From IMG/VR virus record IMGVR_UViG_3300050025_000333, positions 1-31,999 of that record: DNA of 31,999 bases, one strand, 5' to 3'. This DNA is from a virus. Every line of letters begins with the position of its first letter. The first letter of the stretch is position 1. This document shows, in pieces, positions 3,253 through 28,713 of the stretch. Below the pieces are notes generated by a model that made no database searches, had not been told where the DNA came from, and was given only the letters and a program-made list of their open reading frames with translations. Made by a program: the position numbers and the translations under genes.

Positions 3253-3567
3253 ATGCAAGACAACAATCGATACCTAAACCTCCTCCGAACAGCTGAATTG
3301 GCAAAGCGCAAGGGGGAGCCTTATGTCCCCTTTGATGGATACGAATTGGAGCTGTTCACCGCTTTTGCCGCACTAGAACATTTGCCTGCTCTAGATAGCA
3401 ACGAACAGCACCCCGAGGGCTGGAAGCTTCAGAAGAAGGTGCCTGTGACCGACTTCCAGAAGCTGACAGACGAAACCAAGGTGTGGGCTAAGGACTTTAC
3501 TTCGCCTACATTTGGGCTTGTGGTCTCCAGCGACCGCAAGGACTTCTTGGTCTTCGCCCGGCAGTAA
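3253..3567 (+). CDS. Unknown soluble protein
   Basis: A 104-residue protein with ATG at 3253 preceded by AAAGGAA eight to nine bases upstream, a regular Shine-Dalgarno start. It follows a 64-base gap with no clear promoter or terminator. It has amphipathic helices (LLRTAELAKRKG) and a C-terminal strand-rich part (FGLVVSSDRKDFLVFARQ). No domain is recognised. It starts a run of packed genes to 4821. Confidence 0.65.
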   Translation: MQDNNRYLNLLRTAELAKRKGEPYVPFDGYELELFTAFAALEHLPALDSNEQHPEGWKLQKKVPVTDFQKLTDETKVWAKDFTSPTFGLVVSSDRKDFLVFARQ

Positions 3568-3570
3568 ATA

Positions 3571-3780
3571 ATGGAAACCGTAGCTCACTGCAACAAGTGT
3601 CTAAAAGAGACAAAATGGATTGGCAATGAAAAGCGCCAAAAATGCCAAAGTTGCAGTGGCTATTTTCCTTGCTATAACACCTGTAATCACGTAGACTGTA
3701 AATTACAGCGCAAGGAAATGAAATCTTGTGGTTGTGGCATGATTCTTGAATTAGATAAAAACTGTAAATGCGGAGGATGA
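3571..3780 (+). CDS. Zinc-ribbon protein
   Basis: A 69-residue protein with CNKC at 7-10, CQSC around 25, CNHVDC around 39, and CGCG / CKCGG at the end: ten or more cysteines in pairs, so two or three zinc sites are likely. Start ATGGAAACC lies three bases after the previous stop. It is an independent protein, not part of the 55-residue zinc-ribbon nuclease family, since the K-x-F-DGL signature is absent. Confidence 0.65.
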   Translation: METVAHCNKCLKETKWIGNEKRQKCQSCSGYFPCYNTCNHVDCKLQRKEMKSCGCGMILELDKNCKCGG

Positions 3781-3781
3781 A

Positions 3782-4225
3782 ATGAGGAAGACATTTTTAC
3801 ACTGTTTGGGTGATGCCTTCTTAACGTGTTTTATTCTAGCGATTCTTCTATATTTTACGTCCTCATGGTGGAATCCGTCTCCTTCTATCGACCCAGCCAT
3901 TGCCGCACTGCAAGAAGCTAAATACACCAACATCCACTTCATTGGAGACCGTAAAGGCGTCTGCGACCCCGACCCTGAATTCATAGAAGCTCTTATTGGT
4001 CTTGATGCAGTGCCTAAAATTGAACGTAAGGATAGCCAGGGAGAGCATTGTTTTTACGGAGACCGATGGCTTGCTAAGGACGTCAACGGGCGCTTGGAGA
4101 CCGGCAATATCTATTGTGGGTACATTGTAAAGAATCGACCGCCTTTTAAGTTTTGCAATATCGTGGATGACGCTAGCTCTGACGAATATTTGATGAAGAG
4201 CGAAATGGGACCTGACCATGAATAA
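3782..4225 (+). CDS. Membrane-anchored protein of unknown function
   Basis: A 147-residue protein. Residues 10-27 (AFLTCFILAILLYFTSSW) form one membrane span near the N-terminus; the rest is polar with six cysteines and probably lies on one side of the membrane. Start ATG at 3782 follows the previous stop closely. It overlaps the next short membrane protein gene by eight bases, so the two may act together. No homologous family is recognised. Confidence 0.65.
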   Translation: MRKTFLHCLGDAFLTCFILAILLYFTSSWWNPSPSIDPAIAALQEAKYTNIHFIGDRKGVCDPDPEFIEALIGLDAVPKIERKDSQGEHCFYGDRWLAKDVNGRLETGNIYCGYIVKNRPPFKFCNIVDDASSDEYLMKSEMGPDHE

Positions 4226-6222: not shown

Positions 6223-6870
<648 letters not shown>

Positions 6871-6968: not shown

Positions 6969-7307
6969 ATGGAAAACACAAACACAGCGCAAAACCTCGG
7001 AACCGCTCTTCTGGCCTTCGTTCTTGATAGCCAGCGCAAGATTAACGAAAAGTACAAAACCAACTACCCGAATCTCACCGTTCCTCCTTGTTTGGTCACT
7101 GCTCCTGGCAAGAAGTTTGTCAAAATCGTTTGCAAGAACCACCCTGACGACCGCGCTGGTAGCGCCTGGGCCTTTATCGAGCTTTCAACTGGCAACATTC
7201 TTAAGGCGGCTTCGTGGGCTGCTCCTGCCAAGCATGCCCGAGGCAATGTCTATCAGCCAGAAACTTGGGCTAGCGTAACTTCTTACGGGCCTGCTTATTT
7301 GAGGTAG
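6969..7307 (+). CDS. Unknown protein
   Basis: A 112-residue protein starting Met-Glu-Asn-Thr. Its middle (VKIVCKNHPDDRAGSAWAFI then ELSTGNILKAASW) is a strand-turn-strand unit followed by a basic, aromatic end that appears in small uncharacterised phage proteins. The start is set by the promoter. Its 3' end overlaps the convergent nuclease gene by 13 bases, so the two transcripts run into each other with no terminator between. Confidence 0.65.
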   Translation: MENTNTAQNLGTALLAFVLDSQRKINEKYKTNYPNLTVPPCLVTAPGKKFVKIVCKNHPDDRAGSAWAFIELSTGNILKAASWAAPAKHARGNVYQPETWASVTSYGPAYLR

Positions 7308-8248
7308 GCTCTTAAATAAACGATAGCTCCTTCAAAATTACTCTTAACCTCTTTGAATTGTCCGATTCCACAATTACACCCTTGACACAAATATCCACGG
7401 ATCATCAACGTCTTGTGACAATGGTCTAAACAAGCCCTGTTAACCCGCAAATCTTTAAAACAAATCTTGCACATAAAATCTTGAGCAATAAGAAGCTTTT
7501 GCTTTAAAACCCTAGGAACCCATTTCTTGTAGTATATCTTTAGCAACGGTAGGTCTAAGTATTTTACAGCGTGTTCTATTGTAAGATAGTTGTCATTAAA
7601 ATAACCCAAAGCATTGTTACAAGAAAAACACAAAAAACCGCGCGGCTTACCTGTAACATGGTCGTGATCTAAATACAAGTCTCTATCTTGAGGCCCAGGT
7701 ATCCATTTACAAATAGCACAAGCACCTCCCTGAGCCTTCGTAGTGGCATTGATCCACTCTGGTGAAACACCGTAAAGGCGCCTCCTGTTCCTTATAGAGG
7801 CACACATCTTACAATAGTCGTTAAGGCCATCCTTATTTCCAAAATTTCTATTAAACTCCAAACCAGTACGACGTATTTTGCACCCAGGACATGTTTTAAA
7901 ATCAGGGACAAGAATATCTACTCTTGCTTTGTATTTTTCTTTTTGTTCTTTCTTTCTTTTCGCTGAACACTCCTTACAATAACAATCAAGGCCCGTTAAG
8001 CTTCTTTTATTCCTAAAGAACTCCGAGCTAGGTTTTTCTAATCCACACCCAAAACACAGCTTAAGAGCCGGTATAATGACAGATTCCCTCCCTTTATTAT
8101 TCTCCCCGCACACCTTGTTTGCTTTGGCTTGGCACTCCTTACAGAGATATTGAAGTCCGTCTCTGCTGCTACTCTCTTTACTAAATGCAGAAGTTGGCTT
8201 CTCGACCTTGCATTTTGCGCAAGTTTTTATTAAAATATCGACACACAT
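7295..8248 (-). CDS. Zinc-ribbon array nuclease with two endonuclease VII/HNH domains
   Basis: A 317-residue protein. Residues 10-150 hold three zinc-ribbon units of the form CxxC...K...F...DGL..CKxC, starting at Cys 10, 65 and 120, an exact 55-residue period. Two nuclease modules follow: residues 177-230 with DHDH at 194-197, RGFLC and CNNALG, and residues 260-312 with DHCH at 275-278, RGYLC and CNCGIG. Both match the recombination endonuclease VII type of HNH fold (CxxC...DHxH...RGxLCxxCN..LG). Family members cut DNA branches or act as free-standing homing enzymes; the zinc array probably binds DNA. It has its own leaderless promoter on the minus strand. Confidence 0.85.
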   Translation of the reverse strand: MCVDILIKTCAKCKVEKPTSAFSKESSSRDGLQYLCKECQAKANKVCGENNKGRESVIIPALKLCFGCGLEKPSSEFFRNKRSLTGLDCYCKECSAKRKKEQKEKYKARVDILVPDFKTCPGCKIRRTGLEFNRNFGNKDGLNDYCKMCASIRNRRRLYGVSPEWINATTKAQGGACAICKWIPGPQDRDLYLDHDHVTGKPRGFLCFSCNNALGYFNDNYLTIEHAVKYLDLPLLKIYYKKWVPRVLKQKLLIAQDFMCKICFKDLRVNRACLDHCHKTLMIRGYLCQGCNCGIGQFKEVKSNFEGAIVYLRAYLK

Positions 8249-8254
8249 ACAAAT

Positions 8255-8283
8255 ATTATACCACTATTTTCTCTGGTCTGCAA
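8255..8283 (-). promoter_or_regulatory. Leaderless-type promoter for the two-domain nuclease
   Basis: On the minus strand, TTGCAG (8283-8278), a 17-base spacer and a perfect TATAAT (8260-8255), then six bases to the ATG at 8248. Same geometry as on the plus strand. It lies in the 3' end of the head-protein gene. Confidence 0.8.
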
Positions 8284-9049
8284 TAATGTTGTACCCAGGC
8301 TCTACATAACTCAATGAGCCATTTTTAAACCCATAGCCTGGCATAATAGAGACGAGACTGTGTCTACAATGAGGATGACAACCTGCGACACAAGGGCTGG
8401 AGTCTCCCCGCTTGAAGTATACGTGACGCAATTCTGAAGTTAGCCAAGCCCTAGGCGTTACACCGTCTGGCAAAAAGAAAATGCGCTTACACTCTCCACA
8501 TGTATGAGCGTCGTTTGGACCCAAAAAAGCTATCACGGGGTCAGAGATGCCTACTACCGCATTTATCTTACTTATTGCATCAAGGGTTGATAAATTCCTA
8601 CCTCTCGTGCTTTCGGTATCGATTACTTTCTCCACGTCCTGTCCCACTTTGTCAAAGGCAGTTTCTAAAGCCTTGCCTAAAACGTTCTCAGGGTCCGCTT
8701 TAGCACTCCCCTGCTCGGCCTCATGAAGGTACGCTTGGACCTCATGTAACACTCGCGCCTTAGCCAACTCTCTATGTGCATCTAGGTAAGACTCAACTCC
8801 TTTTTCAACAGACTCATAGAGCTTCCCATTGGGAGGCATGCCCTCTGACCTAGCTGCATTGTCAAACATCCCTTTGAGACTGAGATCGGTTCTATAATCC
8901 GCTGCCCTATCTGGCAATGTGACGCCAAATCGGATTGCTTTACCTTCAAATTCTCTTCCCAAAAACCGTCGCTTTGCGCGATTGAACAACGAATCTATCG
9001 CTCTTCCCACTGCTTTGATGGCAGGTTTGCTCAGAATAAATTTAAGCAT
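8264..9049 (-). CDS. Mu F-like minor head / head morphogenesis protein
   Basis: A 261-residue protein next to the portal gene. Its C-terminal third (DAHTCGECKRI..LPDG near residues 182-197, then SSPCVAGCHPHCRH near 217-230) has the Cys/His pattern of the phage Mu gpF-like head morphogenesis family, where this domain sits in minor capsid proteins. The N-terminal half is helical. It likely goes into the head with the portal, helping assembly or DNA ejection. The start ATG at 9049 overlaps the portal stop by one base, so the genes are co-translated in a structural operon. Confidence 0.75.
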   Translation of the reverse strand: MLKFILSKPAIKAVGRAIDSLFNRAKRRFLGREFEGKAIRFGVTLPDRAADYRTDLSLKGMFDNAARSEGMPPNGKLYESVEKGVESYLDAHRELAKARVLHEVQAYLHEAEQGSAKADPENVLGKALETAFDKVGQDVEKVIDTESTRGRNLSTLDAISKINAVVGISDPVIAFLGPNDAHTCGECKRIFFLPDGVTPRAWLTSELRHVYFKRGDSSPCVAGCHPHCRHSLVSIMPGYGFKNGSLSYVEPGYNIIADQRK

Positions 9050-12000
9050 TACTTTGCCTTAGGGCTCATTTGCCTAGCTGTATCTAAAATCTCTCTAGTT
9101 GCGTCCTTAATATCTCTTTCAAATCCACGGGTGAACCATTCCACTGTTTTTTTATGCTGGTCTAGAATTTTGCGTTTTTCAGGAGGTAGGTTATTCTCAC
9201 TCTTCTGCATTAGGTCCCAAGCCATTGAGACAGCCTTCCCTAAATCGTTTGCACTTGGAGCTGGCGTTTGTGGAGCTTGCTGTGAAGACTCACTGCGCTG
9301 TTTTTCAGTCTGGTCGTCTCCTGGATTCTCTCTTTGTGGCCCCTCTCCACCTCCAGAGCTATCATCTGGCGCCCCGCCGCCCCCACCTGGCTGTCCTCCC
9401 CCTCCACCACCGTCTTGCGGGCCTTGGGCTTGCTGCTGGGCTTGTTGCTGTTGAGCTTGGGCCTGCATCTCCATCTGCTTTACCTGCAACCAAACCGGAT
9501 TCATAGAAAATTGCCATTGGGGGTCTTTTGAAGCCCCTTTGTGACCAAAGAAATGTTCCTTGATATCCCCAACCAAAAAATACTTGTCTAGAATGGCTTG
9601 ATAGGCTGGATTAAGGAGGAATTCCCCACCCCATTCCTTACCTACGGGGGTCTTCTCAACCTTTTGTAGGATATCGTCCATTGTTCCGTAAATTTCGCCA
9701 ACTGATTCTAATCTAGTCGCTTCCTTCTCTGGACTGTCTGCGTCAAGTCCCATTAAGCTAACGCGAGCCTTCTTGGCTAAATCGGCATCAATTAGAGGGA
9801 ACAACTCAGCGTTGATAAAATCTTCAAATGAAGCCAATAGGGGCCGAATACCAACGTCTCTAGAGGCCTCCAACTTGTACTCATTGTTACTTTCAGATAG
9901 CGCTTGACTTGCCGTTCCTCTAGACAAATAAGACCAACCGGGCAATTCGTCGGGTGACATCATGAATGCGGTAAGGATTTCCCTAGCATTCATATCGGTT
10001 AAGTACTGAAACTCAGCGTCGCGGCCTCCGCCAGCATCAATTGGCTGCCAAGTAATTTCGCCATCTGTTGGAACACCAAAGACCGGCATTCTCCATGAAT
10101 TGTGACTTCGTGCGGCATTTACCATGAAAGCGTGGTTTTTATCAGACACCTCCATGTCATACATTTCTACCTTAACACCAACAGTACCTATCTCAACGAT
10201 TGGCTCAAAGCAAAAATCATTCATCCATTCAGGAATTTCTACTTGAGCAATTTTCATATAGTTCATCAATCTGTTTAGACTACATGAATTATCTCCACGA
10301 AGAACAGCGTCGATATCCATCTGTTGACGCTTAGTAAACACCCGAACCGAACCTAAATTGTGAGTGCTCCCTCCACGAGGAAGCTTGGTCTTACCCTTAA
10401 CCATCTTGAGGTACCTTACAATTACAGATCTAGCAATTGAACTAGACGTACCCCAATCCTTATTGGTTCCCTTAGGCTGACGTGGTTGTTTGTGGGGCTG
10501 TAGGAACCCCACTCTTTCAAAGAATTCCTTACGATCCTTCACACGAAGGACGCTCTTACTTTCTACAATCTCTCTTCCTGGACCTAAAATTTTAATCTTA
10601 GTTCGTCCTTCGGAAAGGGTACAACGAATGCCAGACGCAGCTAACAAGAGTTTGACACTATCCCTCATTGATTCGCTAGCGATAGTAATACATGGGCTGA
10701 TCAATTTATGGTTATTACCATCGGCTGAAAACAAGCCCTTAAGATAAGAACAGCGCAATTCATCGTTGATACTATAAATCCACGAAGGAACATTTTTCCC
10801 TTCGTCACTATAATTAAATCCAAGACCGCCAATGGCCCTCCCAACGTCCACAGAATAGCAACGAATAGAGGTTCTAACAGCTGCACAAGACTTAAAACCA
10901 TACCTAGCCTTAATCTTTTCCTGTTCCTCTATCGATATCTCCTGATCTACAATCCTTACGTTTACCCCAAAATCTTTCAAAATCTTGGCGTGTCTTTCTC
11001 TAACGTCTAACTCTTTTTCATGATGATAGTACAAGGTCAAACCACTATCATTAATGCACCCGTCTCCGCTCATCCACCCAAGAACCTCCATAAACTCTGG
11101 AGTAATCTTCTTACCGTTAAACAAAGGGGCTTCGCCGCCCTCTATAGGCCTCTTGTTGATAGCTACAAAATCCCCTACCTTAAGCTTATCTTGGGTTCTC
11201 CAAACAAAATCTCCGTTTTCGTCAATAATAGTAAACTTGTGATTTGGAGAAGTTTTCTGAACAAAGCCATTTGCTGTTTTGGTAGTTACCAGACTCTTTA
11301 AACCCGTCTTATATGCGGTAGCCTTCTCCCAATTTGTACCTGTCCAAACATCAATTTTATCAACGCCCTTAACCTTATTCTCCAATTCAGCAATTGTTAT
11401 GGCGCCATATTGTTTGGTCCAAATTACAGAAGAACCTTCTAGACAGTTAGCGCTGGAATTTATACTTGCATTGAACTGCTGCTTTATTTGATGGATCATT
11501 TGGGGCGATGCATCGTCAGACTTGAGAATAAGCATGCCTCTAGTAGCTCTACCACTCTGAAAATAAAGCTTATTGTGGGTAGTGATGTTGATATGTGTTG
11601 TAATTGCCGTAATTACAGTATCAATAGGCGTTACAGGATAGCCATCAAGTTCTACGTCTGGTACAGGGTAGAAATTGTAGACCTTCATTTCGTCTGAAGT
11701 GAAGACCTGCTTTGGTGTACCATCAATTACTTGAACCCAAGCGTATTTGTCATTGTCGTTCCAACGCTCTGGTACTAGCTTTTCACCAGTAAGCTTGCAC
11801 AACAAATGATAGGCCTCTTTACGAATCGATTCTTGGCCAGTCTTATCGGTAGTCGCTCTATAAATGGTTCCCGCATCCGTACAAACGAAGTGGCTAAAGC
11901 GTTTTTCAGAAGAGCCTTCGTCCTGGGCGTGTACAATTTCAGTAGCGATACGACCACAAACAACTGCACTACGAGCAGATAGACCTAGATATTCTGAGAA

Positions 12001-12513
12001 TGTCCTTTGGTGCTCTGTTTCAACGCCTTCAGTATGTCCACAAGTAGAAAGCAACTTAATGGCTCGTTCTACCTGCTTAGCAAAAGCGTCTTTACCTTCT
12101 TGGTCTAGCTTGTCTAGAGTACCGGTATTTGGTTTGATAACGAAACCTGGAGAGAATCTATCTGGCCTGGGCCTACCAAATGAAGTAAGGTGGTTCTGCC
12201 TAGCTCTTACAATTGAAGCAACTAAAGAATCCTGTATAGCAATTCGTTTAAGAACCGAGTCCGGTACTAGTCTTAGCTTAGCGTGATAAACACCAGCAAA
12301 GTTGTTTACCTGGGTTGGATCAGTCTCAAAGGCTAATCTCGAAATTTCGTTATTGTTGCCGTTGAGGATATTGAGAATCGACTTGGTGATAGTTGGCTTG
12401 TCTTCATTCTTGCCGGTTCTAATGTCTACAATAGACTTGGCTAACTGTTCTTGGAATTCGGCTTCGCCTTCGCCAAGACCATACACAATTGAAGGTGTTT
12501 TAGTTTTGCGCAT
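9049..12513 (-). CDS. Portal protein with an in-frame intein
   Basis: A 1154-residue precursor; without the intein (residues 357-805) it is 705 residues, a normal portal size. The portal ring lies at one head vertex, is the DNA gate and docks the terminase. Evidence: C-extein segment with MNAREILTAFMMSPDELPG and a GTASQALSESNNEYKLEASR helix, followed by a long stem-like region and inhibitor-like tail, as in other portals; neighbours are a Mu F-like head protein and the terminase. The tail is low complexity: residues 1017-1060 are Gln- and Gly-rich. It starts three bases after 12516-13499. The intein must be removed for a functional ring, since it would sit in the body of the protein. Confidence 0.8.
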   Translation of the reverse strand: MRKTKTPSIVYGLGEGEAEFQEQLAKSIVDIRTGKNEDKPTITKSILNILNGNNNEISRLAFETDPTQVNNFAGVYHAKLRLVPDSVLKRIAIQDSLVASIVRARQNHLTSFGRPRPDRFSPGFVIKPNTGTLDKLDQEGKDAFAKQVERAIKLLSTCGHTEGVETEHQRTFSEYLGLSARSAVVCGRIATEIVHAQDEGSSEKRFSHFVCTDAGTIYRATTDKTGQESIRKEAYHLLCKLTGEKLVPERWNDNDKYAWVQVIDGTPKQVFTSDEMKVYNFYPVPDVELDGYPVTPIDTVITAITTHINITTHNKLYFQSGRATRGMLILKSDDASPQMIHQIKQQFNASINSSANCLEGSSVIWTKQYGAITIAELENKVKGVDKIDVWTGTNWEKATAYKTGLKSLVTTKTANGFVQKTSPNHKFTIIDENGDFVWRTQDKLKVGDFVAINKRPIEGGEAPLFNGKKITPEFMEVLGWMSGDGCINDSGLTLYYHHEKELDVRERHAKILKDFGVNVRIVDQEISIEEQEKIKARYGFKSCAAVRTSIRCYSVDVGRAIGGLGFNYSDEGKNVPSWIYSINDELRCSYLKGLFSADGNNHKLISPCITIASESMRDSVKLLLAASGIRCTLSEGRTKIKILGPGREIVESKSVLRVKDRKEFFERVGFLQPHKQPRQPKGTNKDWGTSSSIARSVIVRYLKMVKGKTKLPRGGSTHNLGSVRVFTKRQQMDIDAVLRGDNSCSLNRLMNYMKIAQVEIPEWMNDFCFEPIVEIGTVGVKVEMYDMEVSDKNHAFMVNAARSHNSWRMPVFGVPTDGEITWQPIDAGGGRDAEFQYLTDMNAREILTAFMMSPDELPGWSYLSRGTASQALSESNNEYKLEASRDVGIRPLLASFEDFINAELFPLIDADLAKKARVSLMGLDADSPEKEATRLESVGEIYGTMDDILQKVEKTPVGKEWGGEFLLNPAYQAILDKYFLVGDIKEHFFGHKGASKDPQWQFSMNPVWLQVKQMEMQAQAQQQQAQQQAQGPQDGGGGGGQPGGGGGAPDDSSGGGEGPQRENPGDDQTEKQRSESSQQAPQTPAPSANDLGKAVSMAWDLMQKSENNLPPEKRKILDQHKKTVEWFTRGFERDIKDATREILDTARQMSPKAK
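10099..11445 (-). mobile_element. Intein with LAGLIDADG homing endonuclease in the portal gene
   Basis: Residues 357-805 of the precursor (449 residues). It starts with Cys after SINSSAN (CLEGSSVIWTKQYGAITIAE, block A), has TSPNH at 421-425 (block B with His), LGWMSGDG at 478-485 and LKGLFSADGN at 591-600 as the two LAGLIDADG-type motifs, YDMEV at 785-789 (block F) and ends ARSHN with Ser as the next extein residue. All residues needed for self-splicing are present (Cys1, TxxH, terminal His-Asn, +1 Ser). The Asp of each LAGLIDADG motif (484 and 598) also appears intact, so the homing enzyme may be active. Confidence 0.92.
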
Positions 12514-21165: not shown

Positions 21166-21864
21166 CTACGTAATATCGTTAAAACAAACTTCACTAATTC
21201 TCAAAAGATGCGTGCGAATCATCTCCGCAATTTCGCGCATCTGTGGGTGGGCCTTAGGACTGGTTCGTAGCTTTAAGAAATGGCGCCATTCGCGGAAGTT
21301 GGCCGATACACCAATCTCTGCTTTCAAACAAGTCGGTAAAGCGCACCTAGCGATTTGGGGAGACTCACCGTTTGCAATGAACTTTAAGTACTTTTTTTCT
21401 GCAAACTCGCACATTTCAACAAAGTCGTCTACAGACTTATCTGGAAACGCAAACGGAGGTTGAATTACTTGGATTTCATTACCAAACACTTCTTTCATAT
21501 AGTTACAATAACGCGTTGATTCCTGACTAAAAGAGGCTATACGATGTCTAACGGCTTCGTGAGTTATTCCTCTATCGCACACGACCGAAAACGAAGCCGA
21601 AGGATGTTCCAGGACAGATTCATGCTGGTTCGTCTTAATCATATTTACGAACGCAATAGCGGAAGAGATGTCTGTGCCGGTACCGTTACAAGAAAAACAC
21701 TTAGACCCCTTTAGAATGTTTTCGTAGACCCCGGTTCCTCCACACTCGCCACACACCTTCACCTTGTGGCTAGATTGATAGCAAATACGCCCCATACGTT
21801 CAATAAGACGTTCTGGCTCTGGGGTAAATGTAACTAGCTCTACTGACGGCTTTACGATCTTCAT
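21166..21864 (-). CDS. thyX: Flavin-dependent thymidylate synthase ThyX with an inserted zinc finger
   Basis: A 232-residue enzyme that makes dTMP from dUMP with methylene-tetrahydrofolate, FAD and NADPH. The RHRxxxxxxxS motif is at 106-116 (RHRIASFSQES), and HESVLEH at 81-87 is the other conserved block. Unlike most ThyX, residues 38-63 carry CGECGGTG and CFSCNGTG, two DnaJ-type CxxCxGxG halves that could bind one zinc, inserted between the first strand (RICYQS) and the conserved block. AAGGAGG before the ATG gives strong translation; the start overlaps the nuclease stop (ATGA). With the deaminase at 5710 it would support thymine supply. Confidence 0.9.
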   Translation of the reverse strand: MKIVKPSVELVTFTPEPERLIERMGRICYQSSHKVKVCGECGGTGVYENILKGSKCFSCNGTGTDISSAIAFVNMIKTNQHESVLEHPSASFSVVCDRGITHEAVRHRIASFSQESTRYCNYMKEVFGNEIQVIQPPFAFPDKSVDDFVEMCEFAEKKYLKFIANGESPQIARCALPTCLKAEIGVSANFREWRHFLKLRTSPKAHPQMREIAEMIRTHLLRISEVCFNDIT

Positions 21865-22739
21865 TTTGCCTCCTTATGCTTGTTTAGGTAGTCGATTGCT
21901 TTTTGGAATGTTTCAATTGAGTCTTGAGAAAACCCCAACATAGAGTTGCACCTAAAACAAAGAACACCTCTGGTCTTCCCCGTAGTGTGGTCGTGGTCCA
22001 CGTGAAGCCTTCTTCCACCGTTTTCACCTTTTCCACATATAGCACACCCGCCCTGCTCAATAATTGTATTTTTGTACCAAACCAAATCGACCCCATATTC
22101 CCTAATCAGGTCTTCGTTTCTGACACACTCCTTACAGACATATCCTAGCCCATCATTTTCCCTCAAGCTTACGCAAAAACTAGATGGCGGTTTTTCGACA
22201 TTACATTTAGAGCAGACCTTCCTATCAGGAAATTGAATGTCGTCCACCTTTCTCTCTTTCCTTGAGTCTCTTCTGGCCTTTGAACGAGCAGAAAAACACA
22301 CTTTACAGATGGTATCAAGTCCGTCGTCTTCACGGCTGTTCTTAGAAAAACGAATAGCGGGAAGTGTCTTCTTACAAATCTGACAACCTTTAACCGTCGG
22401 AAACTCGATTACGCCTCTCTCTTTATTTGCCCTTCTGTGTTCCGTCCGAGACAACGAATCGCATTTCTTACAAAGATCAAACAACCCATCCTTCTCTCCC
22501 GTAGCTTTAGAGAACTCGATATACGATTTGTCCAACCCACATTTTTTACAAATCTTAGTTTCTGGATATAGGACGCCTTCTCTACAACGATTTTTAGTCC
22601 GACTTCTATTTCTTGCCTCGTTCATACATGTCTTACAGTACCCTTGCCTACCATTACTCCTGGACGAATTCTTCGCATAGTCATCAATGGACTTCTCAGT
22701 CCCACAACCATAGCATCGTATAGAGATTACGTCATCCAT
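21861..22739 (-). CDS. Zinc-ribbon array nuclease with one endonuclease VII/HNH domain
   Basis: A 292-residue protein. Four zinc-ribbon units start at Cys 9, 64, 119 and 176 (periods of 55, 55 and 57), each with CxxC...F...(D)G...CKxC. The C-terminal module at 232-285 has CAIC, DHDH at 248-251, RGVLC, CNSMLG: endonuclease VII/HNH. Sited between the helicase and ThyX genes, it may be a free-standing homing-type nuclease. Start 22739 is chosen because GGAGG precedes it by seven bases; ATG 22763 lies inside the helicase gene. The helicase reading frame overlaps it by 13 bases. Confidence 0.85.
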   Translation of the reverse strand: MDDVISIRCYGCGTEKSIDDYAKNSSRSNGRQGYCKTCMNEARNRSRTKNRCREGVLYPETKICKKCGLDKSYIEFSKATGEKDGLFDLCKKCDSLSRTEHRRANKERGVIEFPTVKGCQICKKTLPAIRFSKNSREDDGLDTICKVCFSARSKARRDSRKERKVDDIQFPDRKVCSKCNVEKPPSSFCVSLRENDGLGYVCKECVRNEDLIREYGVDLVWYKNTIIEQGGCAICGKGENGGRRLHVDHDHTTGKTRGVLCFRCNSMLGFSQDSIETFQKAIDYLNKHKEAK

Positions 22740-24295
22740 GAAGAAGCCTCCATCACCCGGCACTCTCCATAGATACTATTAAAGATCTCCATACGCTTCT
22801 TGGCATGGCGGTCCATCTCTTCTATGTTGGTAACCCAATAGTCATGATAGTGACACTCTGTCTTTCCTGGGAACAAGCGCGTGCCACGACCAGCACTTTG
22901 ACTCACTTCAATCTCAGAGGTAAAACCAACGATGCTAACGATAAAGTCTACCGATTTGGTGTCAACCCCCATACCAATGCAAGACGTACCAACAAGCACA
23001 GGGAACTTCCCATTATCGAATTCCTCTACCAACGCCATAGGGTCTGACTTCCAAAACTCCTCAGGAACCTCTCCCCGATTATCCTTCGTGGTCCCCCCAT
23101 GGGCAAATTTCGCTGGAACAGACAGTCCACCATCAAGCAATCTCTTGAACTGCCCAACCCCATCTACCAAGACAAGAACCCTCCTCCCCTTATCCTTTAC
23201 AGCGTGGTTTATAAGAGCGGCAGCATGTTTGTACACTTGGTTATTTTGCTGAAGGTGAAGTTTGTTCATCTTGATAATATCACTTGACCTAGTACCATCG
23301 TCAGATGTTATCCTCCACTGAAAGAATTTGAGAGGCGAAAGAAATCCCTCAGATATTCCCTGCCTTACGGGAAGGTCGAATACGATATCATTGGTTATAC
23401 ACTGAAGAAGCATACCAAGACCATCGTTCCTAAACTGAGTCCCAGAAAAAAAGTACCTATATGGCGTACTTGCTAACAGATTAAACATAACGGTAGCTAA
23501 AGAATCTGGTGGACAGGTATGCGACTCATCACACAACAACATCTTTTTAGACTGAAAATGTTCCCATTCCTTGGTGCCGATCTCCACGTTCATCAAAGAT
23601 TTCGATACAGCTATGGTTATCTTTCTGTCAATCTTTTTCTTGCCGTCAAAAAACTGCCCAACCTTACCGACTCCAAACCAATTTTGAAAATCCTTCAACA
23701 TCTGGCGACCTATACCCAGCGTTGGAACGACGACTACAGTATCTAAACCCGTCCTTTTTACTAGATAGGCCATAACGAGGCTCTTCCCTGTTCCCGTACC
23801 CATAGATACCGCCCCATGAGTACGAGACCCATCTAGAGGACATAATAGGTCTACTGCTTTGGACTGGTACCACCTGGGTTCATGGGGTTTAGTTGCCCAA
23901 GGAACTAGCTTCCAGTCTTCGGGCGTTATGAATTGTCTTGGTTCAGTCTTGAGGCCCAATGACTGTTCAACTAATCTCTGTAAGCCAGAGTAAGTCCAAT
24001 ACCGGTCTCCATCTTTCTGTAGGCAGCTACACCACCTTTCGGCATTCAGTTGCTTTACCTTGTCGTCCAGGGCCTCTCTACCATGCTTCTGGACAAACCA
24101 ATGCCTGTAGCCCCTACCTCCGCTCTGGAGGAACCGGTCATCGTTCTTTTGAGTCTTTTTCCAGGTTAGGTATTGGTATGTAACCCGTTTGTCTTCATAA
24201 GCCAACGCCTTCTGCAATTGTTCAAAGGCAGGCGACTTCTCAATGCCAATAGGCATAAGAAGCTTGGTAGGCGTGGCTAGGACTAGATTATTCAT
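22727..24295 (-). CDS. SF2 DNA helicase (UvsW/RecG-like)
   Basis: A 522-residue helicase. Motifs: MGTGTGKS at 165-172 (Walker A), CDESH at 255-259 (motif II, DEAH-type variant), SGTQ at 284-287 (motif III), GMGVD at 441-445 (motif V), QSAGRGTR at 466-473 (motif VI). A 140-residue N-terminal extension precedes the ATPase core. Phage SF2 enzymes of this layout unwind or reverse branched replication intermediates (T4 UvsW). It starts in an overlap with the upstream gene and ends in the zinc-ribbon nuclease gene. Substrate is inferred. Confidence 0.85.
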   Translation of the reverse strand: MNNLVLATPTKLLMPIGIEKSPAFEQLQKALAYEDKRVTYQYLTWKKTQKNDDRFLQSGGRGYRHWFVQKHGREALDDKVKQLNAERWCSCLQKDGDRYWTYSGLQRLVEQSLGLKTEPRQFITPEDWKLVPWATKPHEPRWYQSKAVDLLCPLDGSRTHGAVSMGTGTGKSLVMAYLVKRTGLDTVVVVPTLGIGRQMLKDFQNWFGVGKVGQFFDGKKKIDRKITIAVSKSLMNVEIGTKEWEHFQSKKMLLCDESHTCPPDSLATVMFNLLASTPYRYFFSGTQFRNDGLGMLLQCITNDIVFDLPVRQGISEGFLSPLKFFQWRITSDDGTRSSDIIKMNKLHLQQNNQVYKHAAALINHAVKDKGRRVLVLVDGVGQFKRLLDGGLSVPAKFAHGGTTKDNRGEVPEEFWKSDPMALVEEFDNGKFPVLVGTSCIGMGVDTKSVDFIVSIVGFTSEIEVSQSAGRGTRLFPGKTECHYHDYWVTNIEEMDRHAKKRMEIFNSIYGECRVMEASSWMT

Positions 24296-26179: not shown

Positions 26180-28018
26180 ATGGAAAACATTAAGACGAAG
26201 TCGGCAGCAAAAGTAGTTCTACCAAAATCTCCTCTGCTTGAAAAGAAAATTCTAGACACTATGGCAACTATCTCCCAAATTGTGGGAGGCACCCTTGGAC
26301 CCGGAGGCAGGCCGGTTATTATCGAAAGACAGGAGTACAACCTTCCTCCACTTTGCACGAAAGACGGTGTAACTGTTTTTCGCAGTTTAGGTTTTCAAGA
26401 CGCCATCCAGCATTCTATCCTAGAATCTATTCGAGATGTTTCTGTAAGAACCGCCCAAGAGGCTGGGGATGGAACAACTACAGCGACTATTTTATCTGAA
26501 GCTTTTGTAAGACATACCTCTGAATTTTGTAAAAAGAATCCTACCATTCCTTCTATTTTTGTTATCAAGACCATCCAGCGTCTGTTCCGCGAAGTTATGG
26601 TTCCTACTATAGAAAAGTTGACTATCAAGTGCGATTTTGAAACTCCTAAGGGTAAAAGACTTCTCCGAAACGTAGCTAAGATTTCTGGCAATGGAGATAC
26701 TGACTTAGCGGACGCTGTTATGCAATGTTTTGACATCACCGGGGACGAAGGCAACGTTACAATTATTGAGAGTACTGGCAAGACCTCCTACGAAGTTGAA
26801 AAGATTGAGGGGTATCCGGTGCTTACCGGGTATGAATCTGCCTGTGGTAAGTTTTATAGCGCTTTCATCAACGACCCGGCTACGCAACGGATTATTATGG
26901 ATAAGCCTATTTTTATTCTTTACTTTGGCAGAATTTCTGACTTTCACACATGTCTAGATATTCTTGAACGTCTTCAGGAGGGGTTGGAAAGGCATTATCT
27001 TGAGACGCCTAACATCGTATTAATGGCCACCGGATTCTCCGAATCGGTATTAGCAAACCTAGCTTCTATATTTGTTAAGGCCTCAAATATTAATGTTCTT
27101 CCAGTTCTCATTCCTAAGACTGCTGTACTTAACTCAGAGTATCACTTTCTAGAGGATATTGCGGCAGTTACAGGCGCTGAAATCTTTGATCCCACCACCA
27201 AGCAACTAAATACTGCTGTATTTGAAGATTTAGGGAACCTTGCTAAGGAGGAACAGATTATCGACGGTACTCCAACTGAGGTTTATGTTCCTCTTGGCGT
27301 TAAATCTTTTGAATGCGGACGCTACCGAAGTACCGTGATTGGGCACTGTGATGAAGAAATTCTTATTAAACAGATCGATAAGGTAAAATCAGCTATTCCA
27401 AATACCGAATCAGAGTACGATCTTCGATATTTTCAAGAACGCCTAGCTAAACTTTCTGGTGGTATCGCTAAACTAAAGGTTATAGGATCAAGCAACGGAG
27501 AGCTTAAGGAGCGCAGAGATCGTGCCGAGGATGCTGTCTGTGCTGTTCGTGCGGCTATTAAAAATGGTGCCTTGATTGGAGGTGGGTGGACACTTACAAA
27601 AATTGCAATGGAGTTAAGTAATGCGGAAACTGACGAAACTTGTAAGGCAATTGTGGATCAGATTATCAATCCTTCCATACTTAGTGTCTTGCGGGTACTA
27701 TTCACCAATGCAGGTATGGACGAGACATCTCAACCAAAAGAAGTAATTGATTCAATCAAAAAAGGCAATACAGAAAAAGCTATGGTTGTAGACATCAGTA
27801 CAGGCCAGGCTGTTAACGCCTTGAAGGAAGGAATTCTAGACTCTGTACCTGCTCTAGAAGAGGCCTTAAGGAATTCCATTGCTGGTGCCACTCTTCTTGG
27901 TACTGTAGGTGGGTGTGTGGTCTTTCCAAGGGATAACGTAGCCGAGATAGCAGAGGCTAGAGATGCCAACGAATTTGCACGCATGGCAGCTAGCGGTATT
28001 GAAAACGAAAGAGGATAA
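26180..28018 (+). CDS. groEL: Phage-encoded GroEL-type chaperonin
   Basis: A 612-residue group I chaperonin, against about 540 in bacteria. Motifs: GPGGRPV at 40-46, TKDGVTV at 60-66, GDGTTTAT at 96-103 (ATP site), RLAKLSGG and RDRAEDA-xVRAA with NGALIGGG in the equatorial C-half. The ATPase aspartate of GDGTT is present. It folds phage proteins inside an ATP-driven ring; a co-chaperonin would be expected (see 18859-19284). The C-terminal Gly-Gly-Met tail of host GroEL is absent. Starts Met-Glu-Asn; the near-leaderless promoter is above. The stop overlaps the next start (TAATG). Confidence 0.9.
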   Translation: MENIKTKSAAKVVLPKSPLLEKKILDTMATISQIVGGTLGPGGRPVIIERQEYNLPPLCTKDGVTVFRSLGFQDAIQHSILESIRDVSVRTAQEAGDGTTTATILSEAFVRHTSEFCKKNPTIPSIFVIKTIQRLFREVMVPTIEKLTIKCDFETPKGKRLLRNVAKISGNGDTDLADAVMQCFDITGDEGNVTIIESTGKTSYEVEKIEGYPVLTGYESACGKFYSAFINDPATQRIIMDKPIFILYFGRISDFHTCLDILERLQEGLERHYLETPNIVLMATGFSESVLANLASIFVKASNINVLPVLIPKTAVLNSEYHFLEDIAAVTGAEIFDPTTKQLNTAVFEDLGNLAKEEQIIDGTPTEVYVPLGVKSFECGRYRSTVIGHCDEEILIKQIDKVKSAIPNTESEYDLRYFQERLAKLSGGIAKLKVIGSSNGELKERRDRAEDAVCAVRAAIKNGALIGGGWTLTKIAMELSNAETDETCKAIVDQIINPSILSVLRVLFTNAGMDETSQPKEVIDSIKKGNTEKAMVVDISTGQAVNALKEGILDSVPALEEALRNSIAGATLLGTVGGCVVFPRDNVAEIAEARDANEFARMAASGIENERG

Positions 28019-28713
28019 TGAAGTACTGCCCAAAATGTAAGACCCAGAAAGAAACGTCGTTTTTTGCTAAAAACCCGTGTAAGAAAGATGGTCTTAGCGG
28101 ATATTGTAAAGAGTGTCAAAAGGCAAGCAATCGTATATCTAGGAAAAAGAATCAATTAAGGGAGACTGTGTTGGTGCCGCTGACAAAGATATGTTATAGA
28201 TGTAACACAGAAAAGGCCGCACCGGATTTTTACGAAAATAAAGGAAATAGGGACGGGTTAAGTAATTTTTGTAAGAAGTGTACAAAAGAAGGAAGCAAAA
28301 AAAATAAAGATAAAAACCGCAATAGACAAAATGTTGCAGCAGCTAACAGTAAACGGTGTCCTAGATGTAAAATTGAAAAACCAGCATACGATTTTTATCC
28401 AAACAAGGGTAACAAAGACGGTCTGTTTTCTTGGTGTAAGAAATGTGAAGTTATATATAGAAGAAAATGTAAATTTAAAGTTACAGAAGAGTGGTTTCAA
28501 GAAAAACTAAATACTCAAAATGGCTCCTGTGCTATTTGTAAAACAAAGTTCACCGATGATAACCCTCCGTGTGTAGACCACAATCATTTCACTGAAGAAA
28601 ACCGTGGATTACTGTGCGGCAATTGTAATTGTGCAATAGGACACTTAAAAGAATCAATCAACAATCTAAAATCAGCCATCGTCTATCTTGAGAAGTACAA
28701 TGGCCCTCTTTAA
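28018..28713 (+). CDS. Zinc-ribbon array nuclease with one endonuclease VII/HNH domain
   Basis: A 231-residue protein. Three zinc-ribbon units start at Cys 4, 59 and 114, an exact 55-residue period, each with CxxC, (K/R)DGL and CKxC. The C-terminal module at 171-225 has CAIC, DHNH at 187-190, RGLLC, CNCAIGHL: endonuclease VII/HNH. ATG overlaps the GroEL stop, so it is co-translated with the chaperonin. A+T-rich codon use differs from the chaperonin (many AAA and ATA), compatible with recent acquisition. A third member of the family, after the ones at 7295 and 21861. Confidence 0.85.
   Translation: MKYCPKCKTQKETSFFAKNPCKKDGLSGYCKECQKASNRISRKKNQLRETVLVPLTKICYRCNTEKAAPDFYENKGNRDGLSNFCKKCTKEGSKKNKDKNRNRQNVAAANSKRCPRCKIEKPAYDFYPNKGNKDGLFSWCKKCEVIYRRKCKFKVTEEWFQEKLNTQNGSCAICKTKFTDDNPPCVDHNHFTEENRGLLCGNCNCAIGHLKESINNLKSAIVYLEKYNGPL

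Follow-up and report, generated by a model that had tools for sequence, protein, structure and literature searches.

A portal-gene LAGLIDADG intein of a probable Mx1-like phage and its relatives at neighbouring sites of the same gene

The DNA considered here (the window) is the 31,999-base virus record IMGVR_UViG_3300050025_000333, positions 1 to 31,999. A single open frame at 9049-12513 on the minus strand encodes a precursor of 1154 amino acids. An earlier note on this DNA had these coordinates right but lacked the strand; in plus-strand translation the same interval contains many stops and the frame is closed. PHROG portal families match precursor residues 86-352 and 804-1143 (best 1.7e-10 and 2.1e-9), flanking an insert of exactly 449 amino acids, which runs from C357 to N805 (10099-11445, minus strand) and is followed by Ser (+1). 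The N-extein (residues 1-356; 11446-12513, minus strand) and the C-extein (residues 806-1154 and the stop, starting with Ser+1; 9049-10098, minus strand) are delimited by these matches and by alignment with the portal of phage Mx1. Joined, they give a portal protein of 705 amino acids, with the junction SINSSAN/C...HN/SWRMPVF (slashes mark the splice points), as previously described down to the insert length, its position at residue 357 and the size of the spliced product. Portal proteins are the channel by which phage DNA passes into the capsid. The extein is a portal by homology, the gene sits between terminase and head genes, and a profile of its portal relatives hits a phage portal chain, 8q7d, at 4.4e-26. 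The gene order helicase, sigma factor, SbcD-like, terminase, portal is common to the window and Mx1, whose genome is ~170 kb, and this shared order indicates that the window probably represents part of an Mx1-like phage genome.

Within the insert, the Pfam models Intein_splicing (PF14890) and LAGLIDADG_3 (PF14528) score 39.1 and 26.8 bits, above their cut-offs of 35.8 and 22.5. With portal profiles on both flanks and these matches inside, the initial reading of an intein in a portal gene is borne out. Motif conservation was judged in an alignment of 11 divergent members of the intein family, in which C1, S66, P67, H69, D128 and D242 are invariant. On the minus strand, the nucleophile Cys1 lies at 11443-11445 and block B (TSPNH, containing S66, P67 and H69) at 11239-11253. 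The first LAGLIDADG helix (EVLGWMSGDGC, with catalytic Asp128) follows at 11056-11088 and the second (YLKGLFSADG, with catalytic Asp242) at 10717-10746. Block F (EMYDMEVSDKNHAFM, with Asp430 and His438), located by the family alignment, is at 10123-10167, and the C-terminal splice junction His448-Asn449/Ser+1, placed from the sequence and the same alignment, at 10096-10104. The class 1 splicing set is complete (C1, H69, H448-N449 and S+1) and both LAGLIDADG aspartates are kept, in agreement with what had been proposed from the sequence. Most inteins have Thr in the TxxH of block B; here Ser replaces it, a point counted against the explanation preferred below.

The AlphaFold model of the insert (mean pLDDT 87) comprises an N-terminal beta domain (1-97), the LAGLIDADG helices (116-128 and 228-242) with their sheets and, on the C-terminal side, a helical segment (339-410) followed by a beta part (411-449). 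A Foldseek search with this model finds the TliVMA intein (1.7e-20), PI-PfuI (1.4e-16) and PI-SceI (from 5.8e-11), and I-DmoI matches the endonuclease part; a sequence-based search of the PDB with the same intein gave weak matches only. TliVMA, PI-PfuI and PI-SceI share with it the succession of an N-terminal Hint half, a two-motif LAGLIDADG endonuclease and a C-terminal Hint half, as well as Cys1, the block B His, the terminal His-Asn and a hydroxyl or thiol residue at +1. The window intein differs from them in its phage portal host, in the block B Ser for Thr and in an extra helical segment at ~339-410, and the identities over the structural alignments are 10-18%.

Relatives with an empty site define the insertion exactly. 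In Myxococcus phage Mx1 (OR576727.2), whose portal is 49% identical to the joined flanks, the alignment crosses the junction gap-free: Mx1 reads FNASINSVQN/AWRVPVFGV where the window reads FNASINSSAN/SWRMPVFGV. Aligning the spliced portal with its relatives, the check that the earlier note had suggested, shows the site (site a) empty in Mx1 and in at least 14 metagenomic portals, which run straight through it with no residue gained or lost. The metagenomic relative L008, with a portal 77% identical, is uninterrupted at site a, and so is L003, the nearest phage found (88% identity across portal residues 1-426). Position +1 is Ser at every filled site a or b covered on both sides. At site a it is Ala in many empty portals, so that their invasion would need flank conversion, which has been described for MCM inteins (PMC10643990).

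The portal gene of these phages is occupied at two further places, which had gone unseen when the window alone was read for an intein. Sites c and b lie downstream of site a, all three within about 70 residues. On the portal chain 8q7d, sequence comparison places site a close to residue 321, site c to 374 and site b to 388; the structure prediction for the portal itself is poor (mean pLDDT 63), with the intein sites in low-confidence stretches. L003 carries an intein of 442 amino acids at site b (SQALSE/SNGEYK), ~70 residues downstream of its empty site a, and this intein is 36% identical to that of the window. In L020, site a holds an intein of 466 amino acids, and a second intein begins at site c (GYSHL/S), where the contig ends. 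Scans of IMG/VR returned 16 strongly related contigs, and in all 16 the intein interrupts the portal; site a is filled in L020, L024 and L025, and site b in the rest, including L042. The remaining IMG/VR matches are ribonucleotide reductase inteins only (21-26%). The best relative of the window intein at site a is 45% identical. No relatives were found in the bacterial and archaeal genomes scanned and no strong match to the family among 50,697 phage records; isolated phages hold distant inteins only.

How are the inteins at the three sites related? In a tree with eight inteins of other genes as the outgroup, limited to those reached by the searches, a single branch (98/99) separates the portal inteins from the others, the site-a inteins are one clade (100/99) and the site-c intein joins them (97/96). 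The site-b inteins appear either as one group (84/90 in another tree) or as a paraphyletic base. The endonuclease-domain tree separates site a from site b (93/97), and grouping by site is not resolved in a tree of the splicing domain only. Endonuclease domains are 29-50% identical across the portal inteins as against 20-24% to a DNA polymerase intein of phage LR745208; for the splicing domains, likeness within the portal set scarcely exceeds that to the polymerase intein. With a profile of the site-b inteins, site-a inteins score 353-392 bits, the best non-portal intein (the polymerase one) 137, and terminase inteins of the same phages 16-20 (L020 about 16). The common lineage of the portal inteins is supported mainly by the endonuclease domain, and the claim is limited to that domain because the splicing domain is unresolved and nearly as close to the outside polymerase intein. 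On the portal tree the site states require 10 changes, as scattered as shuffled labels; a grouping by site among the inteins but not among their hosts is the pattern expected of allelic homing. Around sites a, b and c the DNA shows no greater mutual likeness than random portal positions do. This counts against the explanation preferred below, and resemblance between targets would not by itself account for a move from one site to another.

The clearest sign of recent movement comes from site b. The portals of L027 and L029 have diverged to a dS of ~1.5 in the N-extein (80.9% nucleotide identity) and 0.95 in the C-extein, but their inteins are 97.6% identical, with a dS of 0.067 and a dN of 0.014, and the 60 codons before site b show an intermediate dS of 0.81. 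The comparison of L031 with L027 gives the same pattern (dS 1.96 in the portal against 0.11 in the intein). Near-identical inteins in diverged portals demonstrate recent movement of the family, and at site b these values establish a recent transfer of the intein, which is under purifying selection. At this site the insert is younger than its host gene and occupancy is patchy, as in allelic homing. A comparably close pair at site a was not found among the contigs searched, and an active window copy is suggested indirectly, by its intact residues and the patchy distribution. The earlier suggestion that the intein may be mobile and active is upheld for the family, since site b bears the signature of homing; the nearest comparison for the window copy at its own site is the 45% relative.

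The reading that we hold with high confidence is that of a class 1 mobile LAGLIDADG intein in the portal of a large tailed phage akin to Mx1, belonging to a family that would have been retargeted among sites a, c and b and would spread site by site. The precursor of 1154 amino acids would be translated whole, Cys1 would perform the N-S acyl shift, Ser+1 would take over the N-extein, and cyclisation of Asn449 would release the 705-residue portal together with the 449-residue intein. The freed intein would be a LAGLIDADG endonuclease, expected in mixed infections to cleave portal genes whose site is empty, repair then copying the intein in. The endonuclease of the family may have been retargeted among sites a, c and b, neighbours in a stretch of about 70 residues, each site version spreading between phages at its own site. 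By mechanism this is apparently an ordinary intein, and the portal gene apparently a hotspot of one endonuclease lineage retargeted to neighbouring sites. For the narrower proposal, of a single intein or endonuclease lineage resident in Mx1-like portals and retargeted at least twice within ~70 residues, the balance tips only slightly in favour.

It is conceivable that unrelated inteins entered sites a, b and c in separate events, their likeness reflecting general phage-intein or LAGLIDADG ancestry. The unlike DNA at the three sites would agree with this, as would splicing domains hardly closer within the portal set than to the LR745208 polymerase intein. Endonuclease identity is nonetheless higher across portals than to that polymerase intein, the terminase inteins of these phages reach only 16-20 bits, and the portal family holds together at 98/99; independent colonisation is in our judgement doubtful, though it deserves real weight. 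Alternatively, the window intein may still splice while its endonuclease no longer cuts, the element being inherited vertically. At site a no copy close to identical turned up (best 45%) and the closest phages, L003 and L008, are without the window intein, both in keeping with such a relic. Against it, both catalytic aspartates and a complete predicted LAGLIDADG fold are retained, and absence from the nearest phages combined with presence in portals down to 24-26% identical argues for horizontal arrival; the relic is in our judgement improbable. A reading frame continuous with the flanks is the sole point for the insert being a normal portal domain or an assembly artefact. In relatives the insert is missing precisely at the junction, site a is filled in three independent contigs and the insert matches intein models and structures. 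The gapless empty-site alignment refutes this last alternative, including the possibility, named in the earlier note, that the segment is normal portal sequence; its probability is negligible.

Portal-protein inteins (PORT) have been reported from six cluster C1 mycobacteriophages (PMC5050341), their likeness to the window intein being the portal host protein, by description only. Portal inteins are already known, and the window intein is an addition from a phage group that has been sampled little. Among tailed phages, ICP1, eugene 12A10, SCTP-2 and Perkons also have LAGLIDADG inteins, in NrdA/RNR and terminase; these are ~20-31% like the window intein, but they reside in other host genes and fall outside the portal family in trees. 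In haloarchaea, MCM inteins occupy four neighbouring sites in one gene (PMC10643990). They resemble the portal family in having several close intein sites, sporadically filled, in one conserved gene; different MCM inteins are said to target the different sites, whereas the portal inteins have related endonuclease domains. Movement of inteins to new sites is considered very rare, and inteins at different sites within one gene are usually not close (PMC1635734). As their copying relies on homology of the flanks, inteins usually stay at a single site. The portal family seems to depart from this rarity of site change, on a lineage supported mainly by the endonuclease.

The noteworthy part is the portal as a possible hotspot for one endonuclease lineage. 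Three neighbouring sites in empty, filled and doubly filled versions would make a change of homing endonuclease target testable with natural variants and, if the reading is true, these variants are available to reconstruct how an endonuclease gains a new target. The family also offers a phage system for the competition of neighbouring inteins (compare PMC10643990).

Other elements occur in the window and its relatives. The gene just downstream of the portal is uninterrupted in the window (8264-9049), and its homologues in L010 (7910-9865) and L029 (7387-8931) carry a further intein at HPHC. Inteins are present in the terminase large subunit of L019 (3-2399), L020 (670-3132) and L013 (ORF from 2311); that of L020 lies at a GK/T site, and its profile score shows only a very slight similarity to the portal family. 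L037 (LR745208.1), an unannotated huge phage of 485 kb, has a DNA polymerase gene with two inteins, the second of which is the closest intein found outside portals. Searching the window record for the RtcB family gave no match. The window encodes a GroEL/TCP-1-type chaperonin of 612 amino acids (26180-28018, plus strand) and an ORF at 6223-6870 (plus strand) with an Ala-rich repeat (RYAAAAD-like runs) making up its C-terminal half. Endonuclease VII-like genes that contain zinc-ribbon-like repeats lie at 7295-8248 (minus), 21861-22763 (minus) and 28018-28713 (plus), each next to a conserved gene (head gene, helicase or chaperonin) whose 3' end it abuts or overlaps. These Endonuclease VII-like genes look like free-standing mobile endonucleases; in the sister phage L003 an Endonuclease VII-like gene (3322-4143) is instead located after the terminase.
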